Assembly: GCF_018613155.1 (NCBI RefSeq)
Contig: NZ_JAGGQU010000031.1
Span: 36,908 to 95,338, forward strand
Source of the DNA: Bacillus sp. ISL-55
GTDB lineage: Bacteria; Bacillota; Bacilli; Bacillales; Cytobacillaceae
Direction: 5' to 3'
Length of the DNA: 58,431 bases
The notes beneath the pieces were generated by a model. It was not told where the DNA came from. It saw only the letters and a list, made by a program, of their open reading frames with translations, and made no database searches. This document shows, piece by piece, positions 1,100-58,431 of the stretch (position 1 is the first letter of the stretch; every line of letters starts with the position of its first letter). The position numbers were made by a program, and so were the translations under genes.

Positions 1100-1441
1100 T
1101 CATTTGGGCTAATACTTCTTTCTATAGAACCTTTTCATCCCTTCAACTACTTTTCGGGCTTATAGAACCTTTCTATAGGACCTTTTCTTTCTTCCAACTA
1201 CATTTCGGGCTTATAGAATCTTTCTATAGGACCTTTTCTTCCCTCCAACCGATTTTCGGGCTTATAGAATCTTTCTATAAGACCTTTTCTTCCCTCCAAT
1301 TACATTTTGGGCTTATAGAATCTTTCTATAGAACCTTTTCTTCCTTCCAACTACATTTTGGGCTTATAGAATCTTTCTATAGGACCTTTTCTTCCTTCCA
1401 ACTACTTTTCGGGCTTATAGAAACTCTATATAGAACTTTTT
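1100..1441. repeat. Tandem array A: 51-bp units, hairpin plus T-run
   Basis: TTCTATA anchors recur at 1120, 1171, 1222, 1273, 1324 and 1375, an exact 51-bp period, with a degraded seventh unit near 1426. In each unit a GGGCTTATAGAA arm can pair with the next TTCTATAGGACC arm around a three-base loop, followed by TTTTCTT on the + strand, which resembles an intrinsic terminator. The array fills the gap between convergent uppP and argF. Because 51 is divisible by 3, a long open frame (1084-1626) runs through it. That frame has no ribosome binding site and encodes a 17-residue repeat, so I do not call it a gene. Confidence 0.9.
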
Positions 1442-1455
1442 CACATCTTCACCAT

Positions 1456-2418
1456 TTAATCCTTCAGTATCTCCACAAGCAGTGCTTTCTGGGCATGGAG
1501 GCGGTTTCCTGCCTGTTCGAATACGACGGAGTGGTGGCCGTCGATGACTGCCGCTGTTACCTCCTCGCCGCGGTGCGCCGGAAGACAATGCATAAACAGG
1601 TAGTCTTCCTTTGCTGTTTCGAGTAATGCCTCATTCACCTGGTAGCCATTGAAATCATTTAACCTCTGCTCATTTTCGAGTTCCTGGCCCATGCTGGTCC
1701 ATACATCAGTATAGATGATATCTGCATGATCAACTGCTTCTTGAGGGGACTCGGTGATGACCATGCTTGCGCCGCTTTGCCTTGCAAAATCTTCACAGTG
1801 AGCTGTTATCTTCTCATCCGGGAAGTATTCCTTTGGAGACGCAATACTTACATTCATCCCGACTTTTGTGCAGGCGATCATCAGTGAATGAGCAACATTG
1901 TTTCCATCACCGATGTAAGCAAGCTTGAGGCCTTTTAGAGTTCCCTTTTTTTCGTAAATCGTCAGAAGGTCTGCAAGTGCCTGGCATGGATGATACAGAT
2001 CCGTCAGACCATTAATGACCGGAATGTCGGCATGATCGGCCAATTCCTCAACTGACTTGTGTGAGAAGGTTCTAATCATGATGCCGTCAAGATATTGCGA
2101 AAGTACCTGGGCTGTGTCTGCGACCGATTCACCTCTCCCAAGCTGAAGGTCGTTGCCATTTAAATAAAGTGCGCTTCCTCCAAGCTGGATCATTCCTACC
2201 TCAAAAGATACTCTTGTACGTGTTGACGACTTGTCAAAGATCATTCCCAGTATTTTTCCTTTGAGGGGCTCCTCAAATTCTTTTTTTAAGGTTTTATCCT
2301 TTAGGATTACCGCCTTTTCTAACAATGTTAAGATTTCCTGTGATTCCAAATCGGCCAGGGTTAACAAGTCCTTGCCCTTTAGATTCAGATCCATATTCAG
2401 CTGCTGTAAAGCTGTCAT
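1456..2418 (-). CDS. argF: Ornithine carbamoyltransferase
   Basis: ArgF condenses ornithine with carbamoyl phosphate to citrulline, the sixth step of arginine synthesis, in the cytoplasm. The 320-residue protein has the carbamoyl-phosphate motif STRTR (65-69), HPCQ (143-146) and the ornithine-binding HCLPAHRG (277-284), all intact. It is the last gene of the arginine operon. Its ATG overlaps the carB stop in an ATGA arrangement, which implies translational coupling, and an AGGAAG box lies inside the carB end. The carbamoyl phosphate it uses is made by the two genes just upstream. Downstream is tandem array A. Confidence 0.97.
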
Positions 2419-5400
2419 TCTGCCATCACTTCCTCACTAGTTTCTGTCAGCCATTGTTCCAGGGAGTTGACATTCCAACTTTCTACTGTTGCACTTTTTA
2501 ACAGCGCATTTAAAGTTTCCTTTTGGGTCAATACGATTTTTCGGTTCTTGACAGCCCACTCTCTTAGAGAAATATCCCTTTCTGATGTGCCAGGGCAATA
2601 CAAGGCTGCTACCTTTTGATGGTCGGTTACTTTTTCGATATGAATTAAATTGAAATCAGGTGCCAATTTTACTGCTTCCAACAGATCTTTTTCCTCTGCA
2701 AATGCAATGTCTCCCTGGACAGCTTTTCCGCTAATTGAATGGAAACTTTTATTCAGTGCCTCTTCAAGTGTCGAAGCAATGCTGATTCCTTCTCCTGTAG
2801 ATATCATTTGCGGTCCTGTCTTGGCGTCCAGTCCTTTTAAGGCAAAATTCGAAAACACAGGATGCTTTACGCATGTGTACGGTGCATCAGAGTCAAGTAT
2901 TACTTCATCTTTCGACAAAAAGTATTTCCCGAGCAATATTTTTGTCGCTTTTTTTACTAATTCAACACCGGCTACCTTGCTGACGATTGGCATTGTCCTG
3001 CTCGAGCGTGGATTTACTTCAAGCAAAAACACTTCATTTTCCTTCACAATGAACTGGATGTTCATTAATCCCTTATATTTCAATTCCTTGACAATTCTCT
3101 TTGCATACTCAGCCATCCGCTGTTTCGTTTCATTCGGAAAGCTACGGGCAGGAATGATGCAAAAACTGTCCCCTGAATGGACACCTGTTTTTTCAATGTG
3201 TTCGATAATGGCCGGAATCAGGATATGTTCCCCATCAGCTGCAAGATCAAGTTCTGCCTCAGTTGCTTCAATATATTGATCCACCAGAATAGGATATGAA
3301 ATACTCCCTGAATCAAGAGCAGTCTCTAGTTCCTGAGCGTCTCGAAGCACCACCATATTAAGTCCGCCTATAACATAGGAAGGCCTGATTAATACTGGAT
3401 ACCCTAACCGTTCCACAGCGTTAAGCAGTTCACTCTTATCCTCAGCTGTTTCACCCTTTACTCTCGGAATTTGCAGCTTATCGAGAAGCTGGTAAAATTG
3501 ATCCCGGTCCTCAAACAAATCAATGGCTGCTGAACTCGTTCCCAGAAGCTTGACTCCGGATTCCTCAAGGCCTTTAGCCAAATTCAAGGCGGTCTGTCCC
3601 CCCAATTGGACAATGACTTCCTCTATTCCTTCGATTTCAATCACATTCAAGATGTCTTCCAGGGTTAAGGGTTCAAAATATAATCGATCAGATATCGCAA
3701 AATCAGTGCTGACGGTTTCTGGATTATTATTGATCATGATTGTTTCTACATTTTCTTCTTTGAGGGCAAAAACGCCATGAACACTGCAATAATCAAATTC
3801 AATTCCCTGACCGATACTGATTGGACCGCTGCCAATCACTAGCACCTTTCGTTTACTGCTTTTAACTGTCGACTCATTTTCCCCAAGATAGCTGGAGTAA
3901 AAATAATTGGAAGCTGATTGAAATTCTGCTGCACATGTATCGACCATTTTATAAACAGGTGTTATTCCATGCTTTTTTCGCAGATCCCTGACCTCTTTCT
4001 CACTAACCTTCCACTCTTTTGCCAGGTAGGAATCACTGAATCCCTTTTCTTTCAGGTATCTTAATTCTGAAGCTGTAATGCTTTTGATTTCACGACCTTC
4101 GATATCCTTCTCAATGTCGGTCAAAGACTTGAATTTATGAAGGAAAAATAAATCTATTTTTGTTTTTTCATGGAGAAACTCAATTTGCTCACCCCGGCGC
4201 AGCAGTTCGAGCAATGCAAAAACCCTCTGGTCTGTCTGTTTTTCTGCCAATTTATATAGCTGTTCGACAGTGTGTTCTTCAAATTCAGGGAGCCGTAAAT
4301 CCAGAGTTTTTATGTTCAGTGATCGGACGGCTTTGTTAAAGGCCCGTTCAAAGCTTCGATCAATTGCCATTGCTTCCCCTGTCGCCTTCATTTGCGTCCC
4401 TAGGCTCCTGTCGATTTGAGGAAATTGCTCAAACGGCCATTTCGGTATTTTTACCACTATATAGTCGAGCGCTGGCTCATAGCTGGCAAAGGTAGTGCCT
4501 GTTACAGGGTTTATGATCTCGGCAAGATTGTATCCAACTGCCAGCTTTGCCGCCATCCGTGCGATTGGGTATCCTGTAGCTTTTGATGCAAGGGCTGATG
4601 ATCTGCTGACCCTCGGGTTCACTTCAATTAAATAGTATTTTTTGCTCTTGGGATCGAGGGCAAACTGGATGTTGCAGCCTCCAACGATTCCTAGCGCTGA
4701 AATGATTTTAACAGCGGATGTCCTGAGCATCTGGTATTCTCGATCTGTCAGCGTCTGTGAAGGAGCTACTACTATTGAATCGCCTGTATGGATGCCAACC
4801 GGGTCAATATTCTCCATATTGCAGATGGCGATACAAGTACCAGCACCATCACGCATCATTTCATATTCAATTTCTTTAAAGCCTGCGATGCTTCTTTCGA
4901 CCAGACATTGCTTTATCGGACTCTCACTTAATCCGCCTGAAACTAGAGAGATCAATTCTTCCATTGTTTCAGCTATCCCGCCGCCTGTGCCTCCCAGTGT
5001 GTAAGCTGGCCTTACAATTAACGGAAAACCAATCTTTTCAGCAAATGCGACTGCCTCTTCAACTATATGAACAATTTCACTTTCCGGCACAGGTTCATTC
5101 AATTCATGCATTAAGCTGCGGAAGGCTTCCCTGTCTTCACCTTGCTTAATACTTGCAACCGAGGTCCCCAGCACTTTTACATTGTACTTTTCGAGAATTC
5201 CTTCTTCACTTAGCTTAAAGACAAGATTCAAACCTGCCTGGCCGCCAAGAGTCCCTAAAATTCCATCGGGCTTTTCCCGCTGGATCACTTTTTCCACACC
5301 TTCAGAAGTCATCGGTTCAAAATAGACTTCATCAGCGAATATATTGTCTGTCATAACGGTTGCCGGGTTATTGTTTACGAGGATGACCCGATAGCCTTCT

Positions 5401-5516
5401 TCCTTCAAGGCGATGCAAGCCTGTGTCCCTGCATAATCAAATTCAGCGGCCTGGCCGATGATAATCGGGCCGGAACCGATTACTAATATCGATTTAATCT
5501 TTGTATCCTTAGGCAT
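2415..5516 (-). CDS. carB: Carbamoyl-phosphate synthase, arginine-specific large subunit
   Basis: CarB makes carbamoyl phosphate from bicarbonate, ammonia supplied by CarA, and two ATP. The protein shows the duplicated synthetase layout: two homologous halves that each begin with an IGSGPI.IGQ nucleotide-fold motif, each with an ATP-grasp domain (ending in EVNPR), and a shorter C-terminal region in place of the long allosteric domain. I take the ATG at 5516 (1033 residues, close to the length of B. subtilis CarB) because GGAGAG lies just upstream and the protein then begins at MPKDTK, right before the first conserved motif. An in-frame start at 5579 would add 21 unlikely residues inside carA. 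The chosen start overlaps the carA stop by 8 bases. Confidence 0.96.
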
Positions 5517-6588
5517 AGCTGACTTCTCTCCGCTTTCTGTATTTGACTGTATTGATGAAATCTTCAAATATAAATACACTGTCTTCAGGGCCCGGGCTTG
5601 CTTCCGGGTGGAACTGGACAGTCATCAGCGGCCACTTTTCATGGTAAAGGCCTTCGATGGACTGATCATTTTTGTTGAAGAAGCGGACCTTAAGACCTGT
5701 ACTGCTAATACTGTTTTGATTAACAGCATAGCTGTGGTTTTGTGAGGACATGAATACCCGATTGCTTGTCACATCGTATACAGGCTGGTTTGCGCCTCGA
5801 TGGCCAAAGAGCATTTTGTTTGTATCCCCTCCAAGCGCCAGCGCTGCCAGCTGGTGCCCAAGGCAAATCCCCAATACAGGGTAATGCTCGATTACTTTCC
5901 TGATATCATGCAACTGTCCAAATAATTCTTTCGGATCACCTGGTCCATTAGATAACAGAACCCCATCAGGCCTTAATGCAGCAATTTGTTCAAAGCTATA
6001 ATTGTAAGGAACAATTGTCACTAGACAATTTTGTTTGACCAGGTAGTCTGCAATCGACTTTTTAAAGCCATAATCGATTAACACGATGTGGGTGTCACCA
6101 AAGCCGATAGATTCTGGTGCCTTCGATGATACTTCCTCCACCTTGAGACCATTAAAATTGTCACAGCTTGATTCACAAACTGGTTCGCTTGATAAAATTG
6201 CAGGCATCGTCCCGTTCTGGCGTATGCATTTAACGAGCTCACGAGTATCAACCTGCTCGAGTAAAGGTATTCCCCATTTCTCCAGATACTCTGTAAATGA
6301 GTGCTGGGCTTCATAGTGATAAGCTGTTTTGGCAGCTTCTAAAACGATTACCGCTGCAACATGCGGCTTTTTGCTTTCAAAATCCTTATCATTGATGCCA
6401 TAGTTGCCGATCAGCGGATATGTGAAAACAATGATTTGATTCTTGTATGAAGGATCGGTCAGTACTTCTTGATAACCTGTCATTCCTGTAAAAAATACAA
6501 TCTCACCGGCAATGTCCTCTTCAGCTGGCGACCCATGCAAGTGCCCCTGAAATGTCTTGCCGTCAGCCAGATGCAGATATCCTTTCAT
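5509..6588 (-). CDS. carA: Carbamoyl-phosphate synthase, arginine-specific small subunit
   Basis: CarA is the glutamine amidotransferase subunit that hydrolyses glutamine and passes ammonia to CarB. The N-terminal CPSase domain is followed by a class I amidotransferase domain with the nucleophile Cys242 in GICLGHQL and the His327/Glu329 pair in FHPEAS, so the triad is complete. The start at 6588 gives 359 residues. A start five codons further up would place the AGGTG ribosome binding site inside the coding region, so it is not favoured. A 74-base AT-rich gap separates it from argD and holds a possible ARG box. Confidence 0.95.
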   Translation of the reverse strand: MKGYLHLADGKTFQGHLHGSPAEEDIAGEIVFFTGMTGYQEVLTDPSYKNQIIVFTYPLIGNYGINDKDFESKKPHVAAVIVLEAAKTAYHYEAQHSFTEYLEKWGIPLLEQVDTRELVKCIRQNGTMPAILSSEPVCESSCDNFNGLKVEEVSSKAPESIGFGDTHIVLIDYGFKKSIADYLVKQNCLVTIVPYNYSFEQIAALRPDGVLLSNGPGDPKELFGQLHDIRKVIEHYPVLGICLGHQLAALALGGDTNKMLFGHRGANQPVYDVTSNRVFMSSQNHSYAVNQNSISSTGLKVRFFNKNDQSIEGLYHEKWPLMTVQFHPEASPGPEDSVFIFEDFINTVKYRKRREVSYA

Positions 6589-6622
6589 CAGACACCTCTC
6601 CAAACGTATATTTATTTATAAA

Positions 6623-6640
6623 AATCTATTTTTATACATT
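6623..6640 (-). promoter_or_regulatory. Possible ARG box before carA
   Basis: On the minus strand AATGTATAAAAATAGATT matches the ArgR/AhrC consensus TNTGNATWWWWATNCANA at all but three specified positions. It lies in the only sizeable gap of the arginine operon, 35 bases before the carA start. The AT-rich composition makes chance matches likely. Confidence 0.4.
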
Positions 6641-6662
6641 CAATTCTAAAAAAAATTTACTG

Positions 6663-7820
6663 CTATAATGCTGCTGCCTTAGATTTACTTAAAGTTCCTT
6701 TTAGCAATGAAACAGCCTTCTCTATCTCCTCAGCTGTTACATTAAGCGGTGGAAGAAGACGGACAACTTTTTCTCCTGCCGGCAATGCTAACAGTCCCGA
6801 TTTCCTCAATTCTGCTAAAATTGGCTGGGCAGCAACAGTCAGTTCGATTCCAGCCATCAATCCCAGTCCCCTGATTTCTTTAACAACTTCCAAACAGCAC
6901 AGTTCATTATACAGCAACTCAAACAGCAGTCTCCCTTTGTCGGAAACCTCTTCTAGGAATTCCTCTTTAAAAATGATATCCATTACGGCTATCGCAGCCG
7001 ATGTGCTGATTGGATTTCCGCCAAATGTAGAGCCATGGCTTCCAGGACCAAGAGATTCCGCCAGTTCTGCCTTTCCAACGGCAGCTCCTATCGGAAACCC
7101 ATTCCCAAGACCTTTGGCAACAGTGATGATATCGGGTTCAATCCCATAATGCTGAAAGGCGAATGGCTTCCCTGTCCGTCCGACCCCGGTCTGGATTTCA
7201 TCGATAATTAGCAGGACGCCGTTTTCAGCACATAACTTTGCAGCTTCTTTTATAAATTCGTTTGTAACGACGTGGATTCCGCCTTCCCCCTGAACAATTT
7301 CAATCATTACCGCAGCTGTTTCAGGATCTAATTCATTTTTCAGAGCTTCCACATCATTGAATGGCAGATGGATGAATGTTTCAAGCATGCTTCCAAACCC
7401 CTGCTTGATTTTATCCTGTCCAGTCGCAGCCATCCCGGCGAAAGTCCTGCCGTGAAAGGATTGCTGGAATGTGATGATTTTAGTCCGTCCAGTAGCTTTC
7501 CTTGCCAGTTTAATCGCTGCTTCATTTGCTTCAGCTCCGCTGTTGGCAAAGAATACACAATCCAGACCAGATCCGTCTGCGAGCTTTTTCGCTGCTTCTT
7601 CCTGGATACTTTGCGGAAAAAGATTGGATACATGCCAGAATAGACCGAGCTGTTCCTTGACTGCATGTTCGACTGCTTCAGGGCGATGGCCCAAATTGCA
7701 GACGCCTATACCTGAAGTAAAATCAATGTATTGTTGTCCGTCCTTTCCGTATAGGATGGTCCCTGCTGCTTTCTCAGGCTCTATTTCCCAACGGTGATAG
7801 GTAGGGAATAAATGACTCAT
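6663..7820 (-). CDS. argD: Acetylornithine aminotransferase
   Basis: ArgD is a PLP-dependent class III aminotransferase that converts N-acetylglutamate semialdehyde to N-acetylornithine. The 385-residue protein has SGAEA (94-98) for phosphate binding, the cofactor-ring aspartate in DEIQ (207-210) and the Schiff-base Lys236 in TVAKGLGNG. Its ATG overlaps the argB stop in an ATGA arrangement. The length and all key residues are typical of the family, and it lies between argB and carA as in B. subtilis. Confidence 0.96.
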   Translation of the reverse strand: MSHLFPTYHRWEIEPEKAAGTILYGKDGQQYIDFTSGIGVCNLGHRPEAVEHAVKEQLGLFWHVSNLFPQSIQEEAAKKLADGSGLDCVFFANSGAEANEAAIKLARKATGRTKIITFQQSFHGRTFAGMAATGQDKIKQGFGSMLETFIHLPFNDVEALKNELDPETAAVMIEIVQGEGGIHVVTNEFIKEAAKLCAENGVLLIIDEIQTGVGRTGKPFAFQHYGIEPDIITVAKGLGNGFPIGAAVGKAELAESLGPGSHGSTFGGNPISTSAAIAVMDIIFKEEFLEEVSDKGRLLFELLYNELCCLEVVKEIRGLGLMAGIELTVAAQPILAELRKSGLLALPAGEKVVRLLPPLNVTAEEIEKAVSLLKGTLSKSKAAAL

Positions 7821-8590: not shown

Positions 8591-8603
8591 TGAATCCGCC
8601 CCT

Positions 8604-9839: not shown

Positions 9840-9850
9840 ATAATCCTCCT

Positions 9851-10885: not shown

Positions 10886-10904
10886 TTGAAACCTCCTTTC
10901 AACT

Positions 10905-10983
10905 TATGCATAAATAAACATATAAATTTATAATTATAAATAAATTTCTTTTTATTATAAGAACAAAGGATGGAAAACGCAAT
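10905..10983 (-). promoter_or_regulatory. argC promoter with ARG box
   Basis: On the minus strand TTGCGT and TATAAT (10959-10954) are separated by 17 bases and read towards argC. Downstream, 10905-10922 reads TATGCATAAATAAACATA on the + strand, matching the palindromic ARG-box consensus TNTGNATWWWWATNCANA with one mismatch. The AT-rich stretch at 10923-10945 may hold a second, weaker box, since such boxes often occur in pairs. Repression by an ArgR/AhrC protein with arginine is the expected mode. Confidence 0.7.
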
Positions 10984-11803: not shown

Positions 11804-11805
11804 CA

Positions 11806-26194: not shown

Positions 26195-26202
26195 AATACA
26201 CA

Positions 26203-26239
26203 ACTGTCCGATAGGGAAGCTCTATCGGACAGTTTTTCA
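26203..26239 (+). terminator. Terminator of yitU, first member of array B
   Basis: ACTGTCCGATAG pairs perfectly with CTATCGGACAGT around a short loop, then TTTTTC. The 3' arm and T-run are the sequence reiterated in the array that follows. Confidence 0.9.
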
Positions 26240-26535
26240 TTGATTCCCCCTGTGTTTGTACGTTAGAAGGGCTCTATCGGACATTTTTCCGTTGATTCCC
26301 CCTGCGTTTGCCCGTTAGAAGGGCTCTATCGGACATTTTTCCGTTGATTCCCCCTGCGTTTGCCCGTTAGAAGGGCTCTATCGGACATTTTTCCGTTGAT
26401 TCCCGCTGCGTTTGTCCGTTAGAAGGGCTGTATCGGACATTTTTTCGTTGATTCCCCCTGCGTTTGTCCGTTAGAAGGGTTCTATCGGACATTTTTTCGA
26501 TATCTTCCGTCTTTATATCCGATAGCAGACTCTAC
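26208..26535. repeat. Tandem array B: 52-bp units, hairpin plus T-run
   Basis: TATCGG recurs at 26223, 26275, 26327, 26379, 26431 and 26483, an exact 52-bp period. Typical units contain CCGTTAG-AAGGGCT-CTATCGG (extended to GTCCG/CGGAC in the later units) followed by ACATTTTTCC, so each can form a terminator-like hairpin on the + strand with one T-T mismatch. No open frame with a ribosome binding site is present. Confidence 0.92.
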
Positions 26536-33565: not shown

Positions 33566-33573
33566 TTTAAATG

Positions 33574-33608
33574 AAGCGGCTTTCAAATATAAGGGGCCGC
33601 TTTTTTTG
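33574..33608 (+). terminator. Terminator of cdr
   Basis: AAGCGGC pairs with GCCGCTT across a 15-base loop, followed by TTTTTTG; array C begins right after. Confidence 0.75.
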
Positions 33609-33616: not shown

Positions 33617-34065
33617 GACTTCTGCATTTTCCCTTTTTTCGCTTCTCTACACTTTTTGGGGTAATGCAGAGCTTCTGCTTTTACCCTTTTTCGCTTCTCT
33701 GCACTTTTTGGGGTAATGCAGAGCATCTGCTTTTACCCTTTTTCGCTTCTCTACACTTTTTGGGGTAATGCAAAGCTTCTGCTTTTACCCTTTTTCGCTT
33801 CTCTGCACTTTTTGGGGTAATGCAAAGCTCCTACTTTTCCCCTTTTTGGTTTCTCAACTCTTTTTGGGGCAATGCAAAGCTCCTGCTTTTACCCTTTTTG
33901 GTTTCTCAACTCTTTTTGGGGCAATGCAAAGCTCTTGCTTTTCCCCTTTTTGGTTTCTCAACTCTTTTTGGGGCAATGCAAAGCTCCTGCTTTTACCCTT
34001 TTTCGCTTCCTACCAACTTTTCGGGCAATGCAGGTGTTCTGTTTTATCGTTTTCAGCGCCCCGGT
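33617..34065. repeat. Tandem array C: 52-bp units, hairpin plus T-run
   Basis: GGGG or its equivalent recurs at 33658, 33710, 33762, 33814, 33866, 33918, 33970 and about 34022, an exact 52-bp period. A unit such as GGGTAATGCAGA-GCT-TCTGCTTTTACCC, followed by TTTTTCG, folds as a terminator-like hairpin on the + strand. Units fall in two subtypes (GGGGTAATGCAGA early, GGGGCAATGCAAA late). Partial open frames here are frame-shifted repeats with no ribosome binding site. Confidence 0.93.
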
Positions 34066-34167
34066 CAATGCACTCCCATGATTAAAAGAAGGAATTTCCA
34101 TGTTTTTAATCTGGTTTTTTAAGGAATTTAATAAATGTTGATTTATATTAAAGGAGTGAATTGTTCT

Positions 34168-45481: not shown

Positions 45482-45600
45482 ATAGAAATACGCTGATTTA
45501 ATACCAAAAAGTGTTCGAGTAGAATCCAAACGTTCTTGCTTATAGAAAATAGGATGAATAGGACAATAGTTTTCCGGGTTTTAAATCGAAATCCAAAATT

Positions 45601-45710
45601 TTATAGCGATATTTTCAGTTTTATAGCGAAAATTTCTCTTTTATAGCGAAAATCTAATTTTTATAGCGAAATTACTACTTTTATAGCGAAAATCGAATTA
45701 TTATAGCGAA
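45601..45710. repeat. Tandem array D: 20-bp period, constant 10-mer plus variable 10-mer
   Basis: TTATAGCGAA (first copy TTATAGCGAT) starts at 45601, 45621, 45641, 45661, 45681 and 45701, exactly 20 bases apart. The five intervening 10-mers are all different (for example ATTTTCAGTT, AATCTAATTT, ATTACTACTT). No cas gene is nearby and the spacers are far too short for CRISPR. Confidence 0.9.
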
Positions 45711-50437: not shown

Positions 50438-50564
50438 TGCATTCTCCAATTATTATATTTCTCCAATAACCCTTCTCTTAAATTATCATATTTTGCGGGG
50501 TTAAGATATGACAAAAAAAGAAAAAGCTGCCTATAAGGACAGCTTTCTTTCGACAATTTCACTA

Positions 50565-50918: not shown

Positions 50919-51001
50919 GTACCCGTCCTCCTAATAGTAAATTCTAAAATATCATATCATAACGCCATCAAAAAAACTAAAATAAACTAGCCAGGCTATG
51001 A

Positions 51002-51910
51002 TTAACTCTCCACTTTGTTACGCAATGTCCCAATCCCTTCAACAGTAATTTCAACGGTATCTCCAGCCTTAAGGAACCTTGGCGGCTTGAAGCCTTTACC
51101 GACGCCTGCTGGTGTTCCGGTGGCAATAATATCCCCTGGCTCGAGTGTCATTCCCTGGGAGAGCACGGCAATGATTTCTTCTACCGGAAAAATGAAGTTT
51201 TCCGTATTGGAATCCTGTCTCACTTCTCCATTTACGATAGTCTTGATATCCAGATTGTTCGGATTTGAGATGGCTGATTTATGGACAATCCATGGCCCCA
51301 TCGGGCAGGTGGTATCAAGGCTTTTCCCAATGAAAAACTGTTTGTGTCTTGCCTGGAGGTCGCGGGCAGTCACATCGTTAATGATGGTATAGCCAAAAAC
51401 ATAATCCAAAGCCTCTTCCCTTTTGATCGCTTTTCCTTTTTTGCCGATGACGACTGCAAGCTCGCCTTCATAGTCCAGCTGCTCTGTAAGTTCTTTATGC
51501 TCTTGTATGCTCTGACCATGAGCAATGACCGTAGTAGGTGCTTTCGTGAACACCATTACATGCTCAGGAATATCATCCTTGCTGCCCATTTCAATCGCAT
51601 GCTCAGCGTAATTTTTGCCAACACAGAAAATATTCTTGGACGGACGCGGAATCGGTGCTAGCAATTCTACTGATTCAAGCGGGATGTAAAGTTCGCCGTC
51701 GAGATTATTCTCGCTTACCCATTGAACTGTTTTTTCCGCTTCCTGGTAAAATACTTCTCCCATTGAAATAGCCTCTAGCATATCAGCGGGAATCGCTGTT
51801 TCACCACCCATTTTTTCATAGGCTTCCCGAAGTGGCAGAACGCGGGTCCTTTCTCCATTTACAATTCCAATGAACTGGCCAGAATCATTTTTATATGTAG
51901 CGAATTTCAT
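51002..51910 (-). CDS. yisK: Fumarylacetoacetate hydrolase-family protein YisK
   Basis: The 302-residue protein has the FAH fold with metal-binding Glu/Asp in LDYEGELAVVIG and the FCVGKNYAEHA segment. B. subtilis YisK acts on oxaloacetate and interacts with the cell-shape protein Mbl; orthology is inferred from length and neighbours. AAAGGAGGG precedes the ATG. It is one base from the P-loop gene upstream and likely in one transcript with it. Confidence 0.9.
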   Translation of the reverse strand: MKFATYKNDSGQFIGIVNGERTRVLPLREAYEKMGGETAIPADMLEAISMGEVFYQEAEKTVQWVSENNLDGELYIPLESVELLAPIPRPSKNIFCVGKNYAEHAIEMGSKDDIPEHVMVFTKAPTTVIAHGQSIQEHKELTEQLDYEGELAVVIGKKGKAIKREEALDYVFGYTIINDVTARDLQARHKQFFIGKSLDTTCPMGPWIVHKSAISNPNNLDIKTIVNGEVRQDSNTENFIFPVEEIIAVLSQGMTLEPGDIIATGTPAGVGKGFKPPRFLKAGDTVEITVEGIGTLRNKVES

Positions 51911-51911
51911 G

Positions 51912-52436
51912 TTAACGCCCTCCTTTAATTGACTGCCCTATTAATAATTTTTCTGTTTCACGAGGATTTTTAAAATGGTATATTCCTTTTCCCTGAAGCT
52001 TGAATTCTTCTAACTTGGCAATGATGCCAGGAGCTTTTTCACGCTTGTATGCTGCGACCCACTTGATAAAATCCCAATCAAGTCTCTCCGGACAGCCTTC
52101 ATTCATATCCGGCCTGGTCCTGCCATGGTACATGATTCTCCTCTTGAAAATTCCATACAGGCACCTTGGAGCAGAATAATCGAGAAAGATGATTGTGTCC
52201 GCTGCTTGTGCCCTCATGTCCATCGTACTGCCGTAGTTGCCATCCAAGATCCATGAATCTTCTTCAGTCACTTGCTGAATTAGTTTTTTCCACTCATCCT
52301 TTGCAGTCATTTCCCAGCCCGGTTTCCAGTACATTGCATCAAGATGATACACCTTTAGGTTAAGGATCTTTCCCAGCTTCCGGGCCAGTGTCGATTTACC
52401 TGCGCCTCCGCAGCCAATGATGATGACCTTCTCCAT
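51912..52436 (-). CDS. P-loop kinase-like protein (topology-modulation/FlaR type)
   Basis: The 174-residue protein has a Walker A motif GCGGAGKSTLARKL (8-21) and an adenylate-kinase-like fold with HLDAMYWKPGW and WILDGNYG, which are typical of the family annotated as FlaR or DNA topology modulation protein. The true substrate is not known. Its ATG overlaps the stop of the DUF418 gene by one base (TGATG), and the ribosome binding site AAGGGAG lies inside that gene. Confidence 0.83.
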   Translation of the reverse strand: MEKVIIIGCGGAGKSTLARKLGKILNLKVYHLDAMYWKPGWEMTAKDEWKKLIQQVTEEDSWILDGNYGSTMDMRAQAADTIIFLDYSAPRCLYGIFKRRIMYHGRTRPDMNEGCPERLDWDFIKWVAAYKREKAPGIIAKLEEFKLQGKGIYHFKNPRETEKLLIGQSIKGGR

Positions 52437-53620
52437 CAGGATTCTCCCTTTTTAAAACGCTGTCTCTTCATGTATGTGCCGCTGCGCCACAGCCATTCGA
52501 CAGGCCCATAGTAAAACCTTTTCACCCACCAGCTGCTAAAAGCCAACTGAACCACATAAATTCCAAGCGCTAGCATTGTTCCCGAGAAAATGGACATTTC
52601 CCCATAATATCCTAATCCATAACTGTAAAATATCATTGTCGAAACAACAGACTGGAACAGGTAATTGCTGATTGAGATCCTGCCCGCGGCTTCCAGCGGG
52701 GAGAACAGTCTGTCAAATCGTTTAAGCTCAGAAATCAGCGCAATGATCAGGGCATACGCCATCGCGACCATCGCTCCGCCAAAAACATCCTGCGCATAAT
52801 CCGACATCAATGTTATACCATACAGGTATGGAATTGCCTTGATCAACAAGCCAAGTGCAGCGAGTACAGCCGCAGCGATTGCAAGCTTTCTCTTTTTGTC
52901 CTGTATATTCTCAAACAGCTTGAGCTTTGCCGCTCCTGCTCCAATCATGAACAGAGGCAGGATAGTGATCAAATATAAGAATAATCCAAACAGGTTATTA
53001 TTTTTATACCATTCCGTTATTCTATGATGGGTCACTTCAGAAAAGCTGCCATTTTGATAGATGGTTATCGTCTGTCCTGCAGCTTGTGCGTCATACATTG
53101 AAAATTCCGCTCCGCCGTCAACCGCAGATACTGCACCGAGCATCAACAACAAAAGGATATTTGGAACTATGTATAAACCCAATCCGGCAATGAGAAGCCT
53201 CTTTGCACTCCAGCCAATAAACAGAAGAAAAACAAAACCGCATACTGCATAGGTTATGAGAATATCACCTGGCCAGATCAGGAATGCATGGATGATCCCA
53301 ATCAACAATAGGATTGAGAGTCTCCTTAATGCAAGAGGATTGAAGCTCAGGCCTTTTTCCAGTGTGCGTTCTCTTAAAATTACCAGACCATATCCGAACA
53401 ACATCGAAAACAGCGGGTAAAAGCTAGCCTGGATAAATATATCAATGAACTGGTATGTAAATAAATTCGCCTTTCCATCCCACCATTTTTCTGGATCGAT
53501 ATAAAAATAGGGCGAATGGAATGAAATCATATTTACAAGAAATATCCCCAATAATGAAAAGCCTCGCATCCGGTCAATTGAAACAACCCTGTTTCCGGAT
53601 GTCTGTCCGTTAATCTCCAT
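52436..53620 (-). CDS. DUF418-family membrane protein
   Basis: The product has about ten membrane helices, the N-terminal RVVSIDRMRGFSLLGIFLVN motif and a C-terminal DUF418 region ending FYYGPVEWLWRSGTYMK. Relatives such as YeiB and YrkO are uncharacterised, perhaps transporters or acyltransferase-like enzymes. I take the ATG at 53620 (394 residues) because GAGGGGGA lies just upstream, although spacing is short; an ATG at 53641 has no site. It begins the DUF418-kinase-yisK unit. Confidence 0.82.
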   Translation of the reverse strand: MEINGQTSGNRVVSIDRMRGFSLLGIFLVNMISFHSPYFYIDPEKWWDGKANLFTYQFIDIFIQASFYPLFSMLFGYGLVILRERTLEKGLSFNPLALRRLSILLLIGIIHAFLIWPGDILITYAVCGFVFLLFIGWSAKRLLIAGLGLYIVPNILLLLMLGAVSAVDGGAEFSMYDAQAAGQTITIYQNGSFSEVTHHRITEWYKNNNLFGLFLYLITILPLFMIGAGAAKLKLFENIQDKKRKLAIAAAVLAALGLLIKAIPYLYGITLMSDYAQDVFGGAMVAMAYALIIALISELKRFDRLFSPLEAAGRISISNYLFQSVVSTMIFYSYGLGYYGEMSIFSGTMLALGIYVVQLAFSSWWVKRFYYGPVEWLWRSGTYMKRQRFKKGES

Positions 53621-53701
53621 CTTCCCCCTCATTCCATCCAATAGTTTACATCTAATCTATGTATATCACACAATTTACCAACATGCCAAAGGTAACATTA
53701 G

Positions 53702-53820
53702 AAATGCGCAAGCGCCTTGGTCAGCCCCGACAAGCGCTGGAGGGCCTGACAGTGAAGTCGTTCTTTGACTTCATTGGCAGGACCGAAGCGACTCGAGGGG
53801 CTAGGCGCTGGAGCTGAACA
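53702..53820. repeat. Full copy of the dispersed ~118-bp repeat
   Basis: Begins AAATGCGCAAGCGCCTTGG and ends GGAGCTGAACA, in the same orientation as the other copies. It lies between the DUF418 gene and the acyl-CoA ligase. Confidence 0.92.
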
Positions 53821-53829
53821 ATTCTTACA

Positions 53830-53870
53830 TTAGAATAGAAAGGGGACGCCGTTACCAAGGCAGTCCCCCA
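53830..53870 (-). terminator. Terminator of the acyl-CoA ligase gene
   Basis: On the minus strand GGGGACTGCC and GGCGTCCCC form an imperfect stem around a nine-base loop, followed by TTTCTATTCT. Confidence 0.65.
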
Positions 53871-53877
53871 TAGGCTA

Positions 53878-55470
53878 TTAATTTACAAATCTGCCAGTCT
53901 TTCCATTTGCTTCCCAGTATTCATTCCGCAAATGGACCTTCTGGATTTTGCCTGAGGCCGTTTTCGGCAGTTCTTTTACGAAAGTGACTCCTGTAATTGC
54001 CTTAAAATGGGCAAGTTTTTCTCTTGAAAATGCAATGAGATCCTGTTCTGTTACCTGCTCATTTTCACGGAGTACAATATAGGCATGGGGAGTCTCGCCC
54101 CACTTTTCGTGAGGTACTGCAATGACTGCTGCTTCGAGGACAGCCGGATGGTCGTACAATACACCTTCAACTTCGATGGAGGAAATATTTTCGCCACCGC
54201 TAATGATGACGTCTTTCTTACGGTCGACGATATCAATGTTGCCATATTCATCGACCGTTGCCATGTCCCCGGTATGAAGCCAGCCATTACGAATCGTTTC
54301 CATCGTCGCCTCTTCATTTTTCCAGTACCCTTTCATGACTCCATTGCTTCGGGTAATGACTTCACCTATTTCCTTGCCATCATGGGCTACCTCATCGCCA
54401 TGGTCATTCACAACTTTTACCTGGCTGCCAATCATTGATATACCTGCTTTTGCTTTCATTCGGTATTGTTGATTCAGAGGAAGCTGCTTCAAATGGGACC
54501 TGACAGTTGAAATCGTGCTTAATGGAGAGGATTCTGTCATGCCATACACCTGGATGAACTCCCAGCCTAATTCCTTTTCCACCCGGGTGACAAATGCTGG
54601 CGGCGGTGCTGAACCGGCAATAACTACCCGAACCTGTTGTTCGATGCTCGGGACATTTTTTTCATAAAACTGAAGCAGCGCATTCAAAACAGTTGGTGCC
54701 ATGTGCATGACGCTGACTTTATGTTTTTCCAAAGCGTTAAAAATTGTCTCAGGTGTCGTTTTTCGCAAGCATACCTGCGAAGCGCCGTTCGCTGTGTAGT
54801 AGAATGGCGATCCCCATCCGTTAACATGGAACATTGGCAGGACATGCAGAAGGACATCCTCATCGCTGACGCGCAAATGGTGCATGGTGCTTAACGCGTG
54901 GATGTAATTATTCCGATGCGTGAGCATGACTCCTTTTGGATTTCCAGTCGTCCCGCTTGTATATAGAAGGCTGCAGACATCATTTTCATCAAGTTCTTCA
55001 CGTTTGAACGTCTGATCAGATTGCTGTGATAGCCATTCATCATAACCAGTTTCAACCAGGCTATCCTCCTTGTAATGGACAATAATGTGCTGTATGGTCT
55101 CAAGCTGATCCTTAATCGGCTGGATCAGATGGTATAAGTCCTGGTCCACAAATAAAACCTTCGACTCACTGTGATTAAGGATGAACAGATAATCATCAGG
55201 TTTCAAACGGATGTTCAATGGGACCATGACTGCACCAAGCTGGAATACTCCATAAAAACCTTCAAGCATTTCAATCGAATTTGGTGCAAGATAGGCAATC
55301 CGGTCTCCCTTGTTTACTCCCAGTTTTCTTAAACCATCAGACAGCCTGTTCACCCTGTTGTTCAACTCAGAATATGTAAGTTCTCTGTCCTCGGAGAAAA
55401 TGGCTTTCTTACTGCCGTAAAGCGACACTGCACGATCGAGAAACTGGTTCAACACCAATGGAACGTTCAT
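53878..55470 (-). CDS. Acyl-CoA synthetase (AMP-forming, fatty-acid type)
   Basis: The 530-residue enzyme of the ANL family activates a carboxylic acid with ATP and CoA. It has the P-loop YTSGTTGNPKGV, the YGMTESSP motif, the GWLHTGD hinge region and a catalytic Lys near the end (PKTASGKIQK). It resembles Bacillus acyl-CoA synthetases annotated as long-chain-fatty-acid ligases; chain length cannot be read from sequence. GAGGAGG precedes the ATG. It is monocistronic, with a palindrome upstream that may be a TetR-type operator. Confidence 0.88.
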   Translation of the reverse strand: MNVPLVLNQFLDRAVSLYGSKKAIFSEDRELTYSELNNRVNRLSDGLRKLGVNKGDRIAYLAPNSIEMLEGFYGVFQLGAVMVPLNIRLKPDDYLFILNHSESKVLFVDQDLYHLIQPIKDQLETIQHIIVHYKEDSLVETGYDEWLSQQSDQTFKREELDENDVCSLLYTSGTTGNPKGVMLTHRNNYIHALSTMHHLRVSDEDVLLHVLPMFHVNGWGSPFYYTANGASQVCLRKTTPETIFNALEKHKVSVMHMAPTVLNALLQFYEKNVPSIEQQVRVVIAGSAPPPAFVTRVEKELGWEFIQVYGMTESSPLSTISTVRSHLKQLPLNQQYRMKAKAGISMIGSQVKVVNDHGDEVAHDGKEIGEVITRSNGVMKGYWKNEEATMETIRNGWLHTGDMATVDEYGNIDIVDRKKDVIISGGENISSIEVEGVLYDHPAVLEAAVIAVPHEKWGETPHAYIVLRENEQVTEQDLIAFSREKLAHFKAITGVTFVKELPKTASGKIQKVHLRNEYWEANGKTGRFVN

Positions 55471-55537
55471 AATCTGCCTCCTCTAGAATAATTTTATAAT
55501 TCTAAATATATAAATATATTAACATATTACTCCTCCT

Positions 55538-55567
55538 GTTATATAAATTTTTAACTGTTATATAACA
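55538..55567. promoter_or_regulatory. Palindromic operator candidate upstream of the acyl-CoA ligase
   Basis: TGTTATATAACA (55556-55567) is a perfect 12-base palindrome, and TGTTATATAA is repeated at 55538-55547. The position suits a repressor site, but the cognate regulator is not in the window. Confidence 0.45.
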
Positions 55568-55689
55568 TGTTTTTTGCAAGATGGCATGACCATTTTTTAA
55601 GAGGATGATTTGCCACTTGTATCAAAACACGAGCCGGCTAGTGAAGTTTTTCTAAAAAAGGCTCTTATAAACACAATGGGCATTTTAAT

Positions 55690-55717
55690 CACATTCTCCA
55701 TCTGGGCACATAGGATA
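55690..55717 (+). promoter_or_regulatory. Sigma-K-type promoter of gerP
   Basis: CACA (55690-55693) and CATAGGATA (55709-55717) match the mACm / CATANNNTA pattern of mother-cell sigma-K promoters with 15 bases between. The gerP operon of Bacillus is known to be sigma-K dependent. Confidence 0.65.
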
Positions 55718-55747
55718 ATAAAGAAATCTATTTAAAGGGTGTTGCAA

Positions 55748-55969
55748 ATGCCAGCAATCGTTGGAGTAGCACAGGTCATTTCCCTTGGGAACAGCGCTGT
55801 CTTCCACATAGGCGATGTTTACAGAATCAGCCCGATTTCCAATGCAAAAACCTTTTCTGGAGCAGGTTCGTTCAATACCGGAGATGGATTGACCGTGTAC
55901 AATAACCAAAGTTCAACAAATACGTATGATCCAGATGCCGTCGATCAAGGTAATTATCTGAATGTATAA
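55748..55969 (+). CDS. gerPA: Spore germination protein GerPA
   Basis: GerP proteins build or modify the inner spore coat so that small germinants can reach their receptors. The 73-residue product begins MPAIVGVAQVISLG and contains FHIGDVYRISP and GSFNTGDGL, the GerPA/GerPF family pattern. The ATG at 55748 follows AAAGGGTG; an in-frame TTG three codons earlier is less suitable. It is the first gene of gerPABCDEF. Confidence 0.93.
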   Translation: MPAIVGVAQVISLGNSAVFHIGDVYRISPISNAKTFSGAGSFNTGDGLTVYNNQSSTNTYDPDAVDQGNYLNV

Positions 55970-55983
55970 TGCGGGTGAGTACA

Positions 55984-56244
55984 ATGAATTTTTATATACA
56001 ACAATCGATCAATATCAACCAGTTGAAGATTGATGGAATCACAAACTCTTCTGTACTGCAAATTGGCAGTGCAGGAATGATAAAGCCAGTTTCTTACCTT
56101 TATAACACCGGGGGATTCACAGCACCTGCACCAGAGGCTGTCCATCCATCAGAAATCTCAACTGGCATGGGGGCAATGCCAGGCAGCAGCAACACACTTG
56201 AAGCACCTGCTGTTCCGCTTCAAGCTCCTGTACGCAAAAATTAA
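55984..56244 (+). CDS. gerPB: Spore germination protein GerPB
   Basis: The 86-residue protein begins MNFYIQQSININQLKIDGI and contains SSVLQIGSAG, the motif shared by GerPB, GerPD and GerPE. The C-terminal tail is rich in Ala, Pro and Gly. GGGTGAG precedes the ATG at 55984; a start five codons earlier would contain part of that site. It lies 14 bases after gerPA. Confidence 0.9.
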   Translation: MNFYIQQSININQLKIDGITNSSVLQIGSAGMIKPVSYLYNTGGFTAPAPEAVHPSEISTGMGAMPGSSNTLEAPAVPLQAPVRKN

Positions 56245-56280
56245 TTAATTAAAATGCTGGGTCGATGCGAGGTGATTTCT

Positions 56281-56895
56281 TTGAACGCGGAATTCTATCA
56301 ATATCTTAAAAAGCTGCATATATATGTGGAGCACCAAAGCAAAAAGACTGCCAAATTGGAGAAAATGATTCTCGAACTGCAGCAGGAAATTGCTGCACTT
56401 AAGGAGCGGCCTCCGGTTCAAATAGGGAATATCGAGTATAAATTCGACCAGTTAAAAGTGGAAACCCTTGAGGGGACCTTGAATATCGGCTTGAACCCAA
56501 CAGATTTGGACGGTATTGATGATTTTACTGTTGATCAAAAGTCTGTAAATGTGCCGATTCCTCCAAAGCAGTTATTTAAAAGGACGATTGAGATCGAAAC
56601 AGCACTCAACAAATATTTGGAATCTGATTTGGAGAACATCTACCGAGGGGCACAGGCGGAGCTGGGGATCAGTATAGATGATTCTTATTTCGAATTCATA
56701 AAAAATGATATTAAAAAACAGTTGTCTGGCAGAGCGGCTCAGCATTTACAGGAACAATCATCAGGTGAAAGAGGCACGGATCTGAGCCCTGAACTGAACG
56801 AACGGGTGATTGATCTCCTTAAGCAGGAAATCCAGAATGGCGTGTTCCTGTTCCTGAAAAACCTGCCTGATAACATAAAGGAAGGACGTTCATAA
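56281..56895 (+). CDS. gerPC: Spore germination protein GerPC (TTG start)
   Basis: The largest GerP protein, 204 residues from the TTG at 56281. It has an N-terminal coiled coil (YQYLKKLHIYVEHQ to LEKMILELQQEIAALKER) and a conserved PVQIGNIEYKFDQLKVETL segment. The TTG has GAGGTG seven bases upstream and gives nearly the length of B. subtilis GerPC (about 205); an ATG at 56254 lacks a site. Its stop overlaps the gerPD start by one base (TAATG). Confidence 0.9.
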   Translation: MNAEFYQYLKKLHIYVEHQSKKTAKLEKMILELQQEIAALKERPPVQIGNIEYKFDQLKVETLEGTLNIGLNPTDLDGIDDFTVDQKSVNVPIPPKQLFKRTIEIETALNKYLESDLENIYRGAQAELGISIDDSYFEFIKNDIKKQLSGRAAQHLQEQSSGERGTDLSPELNERVIDLLKQEIQNGVFLFLKNLPDNIKEGRS

Positions 56896-57077
56896 TGAAT
56901 TTCCAAGTCTATAACCGTGATATTTGCGTCGGTGATATAAGGATCATAGGTGTCTCGAGTTCCTCGTTGCTGATGGTTGGTGATGCGGGTACAATCCAGC
57001 TGGCAGCAACCTTTGATACACCTGCAGAATCTTTGATTGTCGGGCCATTTGTCCCGCTATCGCCGGATATAACGTGA
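56895..57077 (+). CDS. gerPD: Spore germination protein GerPD
   Basis: The 60-residue protein begins MNFQVYNRDICVGDIRIIG and contains SSSLLMVGDAG, the signature shared with GerPB and GerPE. It is translationally coupled to gerPC by the TAATG overlap. Length and order are as in the known operon. Confidence 0.92.
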   Translation: MNFQVYNRDICVGDIRIIGVSSSSLLMVGDAGTIQLAATFDTPAESLIVGPFVPLSPDIT

Positions 57078-57082
57078 TCGCT

Positions 57083-57478
57083 ATGCTACAGAGAATATCC
57101 TGTGTTGACCACATAAAAATTGACGCGGTATCCTTCTCCTCGATTTTACAGATTGGTGATTCAGAGCAAATACTGGCATTGTCCAGGGCGCTGGCCGTCC
57201 AAAGAGAGGCAGAAATCTTTTTTGATAATGAAGGTAACTTCGGAGCATTCCCGATTTTTTCTGAAACAATTCCTTTTCAACCAGCAGTTGAAGAAAATCT
57301 AGTTTTCTCAACCCACAATCTCAACCCAGTGTTAAAGGTTCGGAACATTGATATTCTGGGAGCCTCATCCTCGTCTGTAGTGCACCTTGGAAACAGCTCC
57401 AATATTGCTATGGAAGCCCGTGTAAAGCATATACGCCAGCTTTTGCCCAGGAATGGTATATCAAATGGGGAAGAATGA
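57083..57478 (+). CDS. gerPE: Spore germination protein GerPE
   Basis: The 131-residue protein begins MLQRISCVDHIKIDAVSFSS, followed by ILQIGDSEQI, and a second IDILGASSSSVVHLGNS repeat near the end, so the GerP motif occurs twice. A GTG three codons earlier overlaps the gerPD stop and is a possible alternative start. The ribosome binding site is weak, in line with coupling to gerPD five bases upstream. Confidence 0.9.
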   Translation: MLQRISCVDHIKIDAVSFSSILQIGDSEQILALSRALAVQREAEIFFDNEGNFGAFPIFSETIPFQPAVEENLVFSTHNLNPVLKVRNIDILGASSSSVVHLGNSSNIAMEARVKHIRQLLPRNGISNGEE

Positions 57479-57564
57479 TAGATTTAATGAGAAGCTTCTG
57501 ATCATAAGCATGAATAAGCAACAATGAAAAATGGTTAAAACAAAAGAAGAAAAGGATGTTTTCA

Positions 57565-57783
57565 ATGCCAGCAATAATAGGTCCTGTGCAAATATTGAAT
57601 GTAGGCGGCGGGACAGTGCAGTTTGGCGACACGCTGTTCATCTCGCCAAAAAGCAGTTCAAAAACAGTCGCTGGTCAGGGCGGATTCAACACAGGTGGTT
57701 TTATTGTTACGAATAACGGATTAAGTGCCAGCAATGTTCTTGATGCCAACCTGATTGACCAGCCGATAGCAGGTAATAACTAG
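57565..57783 (+). CDS. gerPF: Spore germination protein GerPF
   Basis: The 72-residue protein begins MPAIIGPVQILNVGG and has GGTVQFGDTLFISP and GGFNTGGF, like GerPA. AAAGGATG precedes the ATG at 57565. It is the last gene of the operon, 86 bases after gerPE. Its stop codon interlocks with the stop of the opposing yisB in the sequence CTAG, so no separate terminator lies between them. Confidence 0.93.
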   Translation: MPAIIGPVQILNVGGGTVQFGDTLFISPKSSSKTVAGQGGFNTGGFIVTNNGLSASNVLDANLIDQPIAGNN

Positions 57784-58088
57784 CGTTTATGTCGTTTTCG
57801 CGCATTAGATTTTGAAATTTTCGGCAGCCTTGTAGAAGGCTGTTTTTTTATCCACTTTAAAAACTTCTGTAATTCAGGATGGGAGCGAAGCTGAGCAACC
57901 GTGTTCAAGCCGGTGGCGAGCTCCTCATTCGTGAATAAAGCATGAATCTGTTTATGACAAGGGATACAAAGATTGGCTGTTGGCATAAAGGTGCCTCCCA
58001 TTTCTTTAGGAGTCAAATGGTGAATGGTCACCTCAACCTCTTCCCTGCCGCATAATTCACATGTGCCAGATTGCTTTTTCTTTGCCAC
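57780..58088 (-). CDS. yisB: HNH endonuclease-family protein YisB (GTG start)
   Basis: The protein has a zinc-binding HNH nuclease fold: CELCGRE, then TIHHLTPKEMGG with the catalytic His, and NLCIPCHKQIHALF. The GTG at 58088 has GGGGAGGG eight bases upstream and gives 102 residues, close to B. subtilis YisB, whose gene also neighbours gerPF. Starts further up (58109, 58139) would contain that site. Its biological role is unknown. No intein or phage gene is nearby, so it is probably a resident gene and not a mobile element. Confidence 0.85.
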   Translation of the reverse strand: MAKKKQSGTCELCGREEVEVTIHHLTPKEMGGTFMPTANLCIPCHKQIHALFTNEELATGLNTVAQLRSHPELQKFLKWIKKQPSTRLPKISKSNARKRHKR

Positions 58089-58221
58089 TCGGTGATCCCT
58101 CCCCACCATTTGTGATTTGGTATTCAAAATTAAATGCAAAAATAGCCTTTGTTCTATTCCCTAGCGCAGAAACTGATTGATCACCATCTATATTGACTGA
58201 TATCCTCCAATTACATGCATC

Positions 58222-58431
58222 AATAGCCCTTCTATCGGACATTTTCCTCGGAATCCATCTTCTGTTTGGCCGATATAGCCCTTCTATCGGACATTTTCCT
58301 CGGCATCCGTCTTCTGTTTGGCCGATACAGCCCTTCTATCGGACATTTCCCTCGGCATTCGCCTTCTGTTTGGCCGATATAGCCCTTCTATCGGACACTT
58401 TCCTCGGCATCCGTCTTCTGTTTGGCCGATA
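58222..58431. repeat. Tandem array E: 52-bp units, runs off the window end
   Basis: TATCGG recurs at 58233, 58285, 58337 and 58389, an exact 52-bp period. Units contain CCGATATAG-CCCTT-CTATCGG followed by ACATTTTCC, a hairpin with a short T-run on the + strand. The core TTCTATCGGACATTTT is shared with array B, so the two arrays are related. Confidence 0.92.

Follow-up and report, generated by a model that had tools for sequence, protein, structure and literature searches.

The stretch analysed here, termed the window, is a 58,431 bp segment of the Bacillus sp. ISL-55 genome (RefSeq assembly GCF_018613155.1, contig NZ_JAGGQU010000031.1, positions 36,908 to 95,338) that contains four intergenic tandem arrays, A, B, C and E, with units of 51 or 52 bp. 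Array A (1117..1442) has 6.4 units of 51 bp with the 27-bp core GGGCTTATAGAATCTTTCTATAGGACC; array B (26219..26496) has 5.3 units of 52 bp with the core TGTCCGTTAGAAGGGCTCTATCGGACA; array C (33622..34032) has 7.9 units of 52 bp with the imperfect dyad GGGGCAATGCA / TGCTTTTACCC; and array E (58223..58431) has 4.0 units of 52 bp with the core TGGCCGATATAGCCCTTCTATCGGACA in the window, and runs on in the contig beyond the window end. All four are purine-rich on the - strand. An earlier reading of the sequence alone (the original prediction) had described these arrays as different in sequence and alike in period, and Tandem Repeats Finder (TRF) confirms this for all four. It had also described each unit as a dyad followed by a + strand T-run. 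This is the build of A, B and E, whose dyads have a short loop; the dyad of array C is imperfect (palindrome z = 0.4).

The genes on either side of array A, BacA-like (+) and carbamoyltransferase (-), converge. Array B has a HAD hydrolase gene on one side and small + strand genes on the other, and array C is flanked by a CoA-disulfide-reductase-like gene and an SDR gene. As had been proposed, each of A, B and C follows a + strand gene, with the qualification that the gap holding A is convergent. They had further been placed directly after the terminator of that gene, or including it. The first unit of B overlaps the terminator of the HAD hydrolase gene (26202..26234, +), which has the same arms as the array. 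The intrinsic terminator of the BacA-like gene (986..1013, +) stands apart from array A, and that of the CoA-disulfide-reductase-like gene (approximately 33573..33608, +) precedes array C. The first two were found by a simple pattern scan; the third was read by eye, so that its ends are approximate, and is not listed by the scan. Within the window the scan found no terminator inside array A or E, and four weak 5-pair hairpins inside C (1.7 expected). A gene for a small HNH protein that matches NCBIfam HlpB (57780-58139, -) has its start facing array E, approximately 84 bp off; the protein also shows weak IscB-type similarity, under the cut-off of the IscB model. Open reading frames traverse arrays A and C (1084-1626, 33768-34085 and 33820-34122, all +), and are likely spurious and prone to misannotation as proteins.

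The genome of the window is placed either in Mesobacillus or close to it; its HAD protein, encoded next to array B, has 97% identity to a Bacillus sp. ISL-37 protein and 91% to a Mesobacillus subterraneus protein. We take B. selenatarsenatis, B. boroniphilus and B. subterraneus to belong in or near the same genus. All three are listed as carriers of a known repeat class by Subirana and Messeguer (2021, PMC8161180), who describe, for ∼30% of the species among 176 Bacillus genomes, repeats of 51–53 nt that are constant in size, variable in sequence and of unknown function, for which they suggest nucleoid proteins or small RNAs; repeats of 20–21 nt are listed there as a second class. Our arrays resemble this class in their period of 51–53, several families per genome, non-coding nature and partly conserved position. 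What the present analysis adds is a 27-bp dyad, a 10.4-bp phasing, a location at gene 3′ ends and a replication polarity. The text of PMC8161180 does not contain the strings terminat-, palindrom-, hairpin, orientation, convergent, intergenic, leading, lagging, skew or purine, and in the open-licence literature we found no report of the dyad, the phasing or the polarity for these repeats.

Our sample comprises the window together with twenty 20-kb stretches per genome from four members of the genus, 1.658 Mb in total. Stretches were evenly spaced in genomes G009 and G011 and were hand-picked on known contigs, blind to arrays, in G000, G001, G002, G008 and the outgroups; one G001 stretch (L244) includes an array known before sampling. 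Where TRF rows overlapped, we kept the shortest period whose score reached 60% of the highest. TRF then gave 61 arrays with a period of 51–53 and none with a period of 50 or 54, a period class far beyond chance. This sample corresponds to ∼36 arrays per Mb, ∼160 per genome and 1.4% of the DNA. The median unit number is 5.7 (4.0–7.9 in the window), some sampled arrays having only 2.5–4 units. The longest by unit number, at L244 10882-12274 in G001, has 26.6 units and covers ∼1.4 kb. Two more species of the genus, G002 and G008, carry six and two arrays in 200 kb each, and no 51–53-bp array was found in 400 kb from four genomes of other families (100 kb each). At 60% unit identity, with units of equal length compared, the 61 arrays form 20 clusters. 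Periods are not multiples of three in 57 of them, and our hexamer gene caller, run with arrays unmasked, called more than half of an array coding in one case, with partial overlap in two more. The arrays accordingly have the properties of the 52-nt class: a length of 51–53 with variable sequence, no coding function and at least four repeats.

Behind this variety of sequence is a common geometry. A 27-bp dyad with KG..CM edges ([TG]G.. ..C[AC]), centred on the best palindrome, is found in 50 of the 61 units; the pattern was defined after inspecting the arrays, and in a control run afterwards five of 488 shuffled units passed. Dyad-based counts below use these 50 arrays, leaving out the 11 that do not fit. 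The edge types are TGTC..GACA, GGGY..RCCC/GACC and GGTA..GCCC, the 7-bp centre is free, and a short run of A lies directly 5′ of the dyad, position -3 being A in 41 of 50 arrays. For units found by arm match, the distance from dyad to dyad is 51, 52 or 53 in 327 of 330 cases. The inner arm positions (offsets 4–9) vary between families yet stay complementary, with 64–78% Watson-Crick pairs as against 27–38% when the arms of different arrays are crossed. The palindrome score lies above all 40 mononucleotide shuffles in 39 of the 61 units (not in 22) and above all 40 dinucleotide-swap shuffles in 37 (not in 24). Folding of 380 units picked by arm match gives a median of -8.55 kcal/mol, compared with -3.15 kcal/mol for shuffled units; a segment centred on the spacer folds at -6.7 kcal/mol. 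Among 27 published consensi, span 27 is among the best spans at p ≤ 0.05 relative to 60 shuffles in eight (two from B. coagulans, three from thermoamylovorans, and one each from litoralis, oceanisediminis and alkalitelluris). In the other 19 it is not; some of these are best at other spans (horikoshii and sp. m3-13 at 29) and some have no clear dyad (cellulosilyticus, kochii and two of alcalophilus).

Variation within arrays respects this geometry. In an unselected set of 22 arrays without indels and with at least four units (180 units), pairwise unit divergence is 0.129 in arms, 0.201 in spacers and 0.239 in loops, and arms diverge less than spacers in 19 of the 22. One length, a common dyad and less variable arms point to constraint on structure, which bears out that part of the original prediction.

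The length of the unit has a counterpart in its base composition. Unit A/T content has its main Fourier peak at harmonic 5, that is at 10.4 bp for a unit of 52 bp. Among arrays whose consensus is 52 bp long (n = 39), this harmonic has a normalised power of 2.98, compared with 1.33 in 2856 control intergenic 52-mers, and it is the largest of 11 harmonics in 64% of the former and 14% of the latter. It reaches 2.66 for 51-bp and 4.23 for 53-bp consensi (11 each), and 2.96 for 18 published 52-nt consensi of other Bacillus species, where it is the largest in 56%. Over all 61 arrays the mean is 3.15, as against a maximum of 1.33 in 300 shuffles. The phasing is present in 16 of the 20 sequence clusters, and in 33 of 34 arrays the A/T of the spacer stays in step with the phase of the core. 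A/T-rich positions (34 arrays) are centred near 9, 19, 30, 41 and 50 of the unit. This phasing is our main reason for reading the arrays at the level of DNA: 52 bp makes five turns of a duplex that is probably curved or easily bent.

Gene context was taken from our own gene caller, which missed the HNH gene beside array E; six of the 61 arrays, without a gene on one side, were left out. The remaining 55 comprise 17 in convergent, four in divergent and 34 in co-directional gaps, whereas array-free gaps of at least 150 bp divide into 55, 170 and 339 (64, 174 and 367 when array gaps are included). Arrays are thus enriched in convergent gaps (odds ratio 4.1, p = 4e-5) and depleted in divergent ones (odds ratio 0.18, p = 1e-4). 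For those in co-directional gaps the median distance is 78.5 bp to the stop of the upstream gene and 149.5 bp to the start of the following one, and 28 of the 34 are nearer the former.

The original prediction took the arrays for serial fail-safe terminators, or 3′-end protectors, of the upstream gene. Proximity to upstream stops, folding better than shuffled units and the small sense-strand G.T excess given below speak for this, but T-run direction does not: among the 34 co-directional arrays it agrees with transcription in 11 and opposes it in 18, with five ties (p = 0.26), and in the 26 of them that have the 27-bp core, T-tails number nine sense and ten antisense. Strict stem-plus-T-tail terminators are found inside only two of the 34 arrays on the sense strand (one on the antisense strand), although the same criterion finds a terminator within the first 150 nt past the stop in 130 of 339 array-free gaps. 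In 14 of the 34, moreover, a separate strict terminator stands between the stop and the array. The GC stem with a T-run along transcription that characterizes intrinsic terminators is therefore not a property of these arrays. Two expectations had been attached to the proposal, a consistent orientation relative to transcription and folding better than shuffled units; the first failed and the second held.

Array direction follows replication, not the transcription of neighbouring genes. The leading strand was defined, for each 20-kb stretch, as the strand richer in G once arrays were masked, with no origin mapped; this assignment matches that of the gene majority in 76 of 80 stretches. With the four window arrays kept apart, the purine-rich and leading strands coincide in 53 of 57 arrays, and of the four misses two deviate from balance by no more than 0.01. 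Replication is followed by 16 of 16 convergent arrays and by seven of seven co-directional arrays whose genes face the fork, some of these in weakly skewed stretches. The leading-strand purine fraction is 0.614 in arrays and 0.516 in control intergenic DNA (n = 545), where it exceeds 0.5 in 64% of cases; given this background, 53 of 57 has p = 4e-7. Leading-strand spacers have the composition A 0.40, G 0.29, T 0.18, C 0.13.

The two evenly sampled genomes trace the switch along the chromosome. In G009 the + strand is the purine-rich one in all 12 arrays up to 2.19 Mb and in none of the seven from 2.86 Mb on; the skew reverses between 2.17 and 2.40 Mb. In G011 the skew reverses between 2.50 and 2.74 Mb. 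The + strand is purine-rich in each of the 10 arrays that precede this point; of the six beyond it, four are not purine-rich on the + strand, one is balanced and one goes against the rule. The species G002 and G008 together have six of eight arrays in agreement, both misses being in one stretch. The GC skew of the window is -0.067, which makes the - strand the leading one; this is the purine-rich strand of all four window arrays, so their + strand T-runs fit the replication rule. The polarity is not clearly shared by non-coding arrays of 20–21 or 40–41 bp (17 of 26).

Mismatches in the arms bear on the form in which the dyad acts. By replication, the leading strand has 170 G.T and 183 A.C mismatches (22 arrays for single-strand pairing, 20 against, eight ties), and among 315 unit deviations from consensus pairs only four are double (compensatory) changes that keep pairing. 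This even balance and the scarcity of compensatory changes speak for the dyad acting as duplex DNA and not as a single strand. When mismatches are sorted by gene direction instead, the pooled counts show a slight surplus of G.T on the sense strand, 148 to 111 (15 arrays to 10, one tie). The lack of a strand preference by replication and the weak one by gene direction qualify the finding that units fold better than shuffles, and selection for an RNA or single-strand hairpin was rejected.

Comparison at orthologous sites shows both persistence and turnover. At locus A an array with similar arms is present in seven of 13 genomes, with 2.2 to 12.6 units; between the consensi of five of these (two of the seven are omitted) the core is 94% identical and the last 20 bp of the spacer 51%. 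At locus C, arrays occupy the orthologous site in eight of 13 genomes, six with the arms of C and two of other families. At locus B, the array of L128 has the arms of B and that of L129 is from another family, and no array was found in the next 10 loci (L130-L139). In L127 the same site, 3′ of the HAD gene (3340-3560), has a two-unit array of a third kind beside what appear to be decayed 52-bp B-type units, and is possibly a snapshot of family replacement.

We propose, tentatively and at slightly less than an even chance, that the arrays are curved duplex DNA wrapping a topology or nucleoid protein; of the ideas in the original prediction, that of a repeat bound by a protein is the best remaining. 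Dyad units in helical phase, with A/T-rich stretches each 10.4 bp, would probably make the DNA curved or easily wrapped on one face, and the fixed length of 52 bp would correspond to five helical repeats. The sites of the arrays, past genes and between convergent genes, are zones where transcription is expected to produce positive supercoils. The arrays may serve for the wrapping of DNA on a protein that acts along the chromosome. The polarity may reflect reading by a moving fork or translocase, or an orientation that survives replication.

DNA gyrase is the lead candidate for the binder, although taken on its own this identification is unlikely. In PMC6379681 the E. coli gyrase motif is described as two 47-bp arms with phased G/C (10.75 bp) over ∼130 bp, the DNA wrapped on the C-terminal domain of GyrA is put at 35–52 bp, and gyrase is described as gathering past operons with high transcription. 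These three properties (phased G/C, the wrapped fragment length and downstream accumulation) make gyrase the first candidate, and a likeness to the E. coli motif and to BIME-2 (bacterial interspersed mosaic elements) would lie in phased composition, the 35–52 bp wrapped fragments and a position downstream of transcription units. The E. coli motif is nevertheless described there as a single degenerate motif of 130 bp with 10.75-bp phasing, whereas ours are tandem 52-bp units with 10.4-bp phasing. After gyrase, an HU-like nucleoid protein or an SMC-linked factor is the alternative binder.

A fuller version would have the ∼160 dispersed, replication-oriented arrays of phased bent DNA, each of five-turn units with a 27-bp dyad, act as a chromatin-like wrapping system that marks replichore direction and zones of positive supercoiling, 52 bp being set by the helix and not by RNA structure. 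This is possible but, in our estimate, rather doubtful. Phasing, a fixed dyad and polarity nonetheless turn attention away from small RNAs and towards DNA bending, supercoiling and the replication fork, and should a wrapping protein be found, the arrays would be a dispersed chromatin-like bacterial element helping to keep chromosome arms ordered or relaxed.

Several points weigh against wrapping. Among the properties observed directly (period, dyad geometry, phasing, location and polarity), the last is neither explained by the wrapping model nor predicted by gyrase wrapping. The complementarity of the inner arms is not needed by the model alone, and the G.T excess on the gene sense strand also runs counter to it. 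B. subtilis is nearly without tandem repeats (PMC8161180, Table 4), so that the arrays cannot serve an essential topology function in the group. When AA/TT steps are scored in place of A/T content, harmonic 5 ranks first in just 56% of 52-bp, 27% of 51-bp and 28% of published consensi; for 53 bp it is the largest in 64%, and the peak is present in the mean. The phasing could, moreover, come from kinship among families, the four largest of the 20 clusters comprising 43 of the 61 arrays. Finally, arrays of the 20–21-nt class have no one clean helical harmonic (2.21 for harmonic 1, 2.12 for harmonic 2).

The alternative that survives best, though we consider it unlikely, is that the arrays are neutral satellites: units grown by slippage, tolerated in quiet intergenic DNA and oriented by strand-dependent stability or mutation bias. 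The range of copy number at locus A, the different families at one site in different species, the avoidance of divergent gaps and a polarity that tracks replication are all in keeping with such an origin. It does not account for a fixed period across unlike families, for arms more conserved than spacers both within arrays and at locus A, or for helical phase retained in diverged spacers, and the purine bias of background intergenic DNA is well below that of the arrays.

It is somewhat less likely again, though still a live alternative, that the arrays terminate or insulate against head-on (antisense) transcription, with or without Rho, through a hairpin, a short T-run and a C-rich, G-poor spacer read against the fork. 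As a result of the A-run on the 5′ side of the dyad, T-tails are stronger against the fork: the head-on strand has the stronger tail in 41 of 50 arrays, with a mean strength of 2.14 against 1.26 and values of at least 2.5 in 16 arrays against four. Spacer composition and the complementarity of inner arms across families fit as well. These tails are, however, weaker than those of native terminators (3.45, n = 14; random genome 0.99), the equality of G.T and A.C by replication strand gives no sign of RNA pairing there, and both the 52-bp length and the 10.4-bp phasing are left unexplained.

Repetitive extragenic palindromic (REP) sequences and the BIMEs that they form lie mostly at gene 3′ ends. 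They are described as palindromes of 20–40 bp tagged with GTAG/CGTC (PMC3733652). A product of a mobile element, either similar to REP and its associated tyrosine transposase (RAYT) or made by a site-specific recombinase with 27-bp sites, would share with our arrays the intergenic imperfect palindromes with conserved edges, dispersed genome-wide and placed at gene 3′ ends; proteins with the RAYT-type domain Y1_Tnp (PF01797) occur in 19 of 21 genomes searched. We nevertheless hold such an origin to be very improbable. The layout of strict 52-bp direct tandem units is unlike REP, and the 39 exact hairpins of the array B family in the window's genome are, by their coordinates, all in or beside arrays or 52 bp from another. 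Genome G006, which is 100% complete, yields no hit to PF01797 at E ≤ 0.001 although arrays are present at its loci A and C, and a RAYT/REP origin was rejected on this ground. A putative resolvase half-site consensus, TGTCYRTTA, for which a literature search returned nothing, fits some arms by eye; the odd span of 27 bp does not suit a 2-bp crossover, and this candidate was dropped. Least probable of all is the serial termination of upstream genes, rejected by T-run orientation, by the strict terminator scan and by replication polarity, which the seven co-directional arrays with fork-facing genes all follow.

Clustered regularly interspaced short palindromic repeats (CRISPR) likewise alternate a conserved palindromic part with a variable part, but the spacers of our arrays are homologous rather than unique (0.20 divergence within an array), and there are many arrays per genome. 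A strand bias set by the replichore is also found in SpoIIIE recognition sequences (SRS), in Chi and in FtsK orienting polar sequences (KOPS), all of which are single short words, unlike the arrays. The SRS word, GAGAAGGG, was rejected as a component of the arrays, being not above composition: its best match scores 5.62, compared with 5.54 in shuffled sequence, and seven of its eight letters occur in six arrays (4.5 expected).

A search of the window found no Rfam match, and ARAGORN likewise gave no hit. The window also contains a 20-bp A/T-rich tandem array without strand assignment (TTTTATAGCGAAAAT..., 45597..45710, TRF), which is probably a member of the second constant-size class (20–21 nt), with units of two helical turns; 20–21-bp arrays recur in the sampled relatives, some read as 40–41 bp. 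Repeats of 57 and 60 bp are seen in several Peribacillus-type loci (L194-L202, near 3617-4013), where they are probably coding and perhaps resemble the general stress protein repeats of PMC8161180. Records titled Chryseobacterium sp. ISL-80 and Pseudomonas sp. ISL-84 (L128, L146) have a HAD gene 96% and 78% identical, respectively, to that of the window, and look mislabelled.

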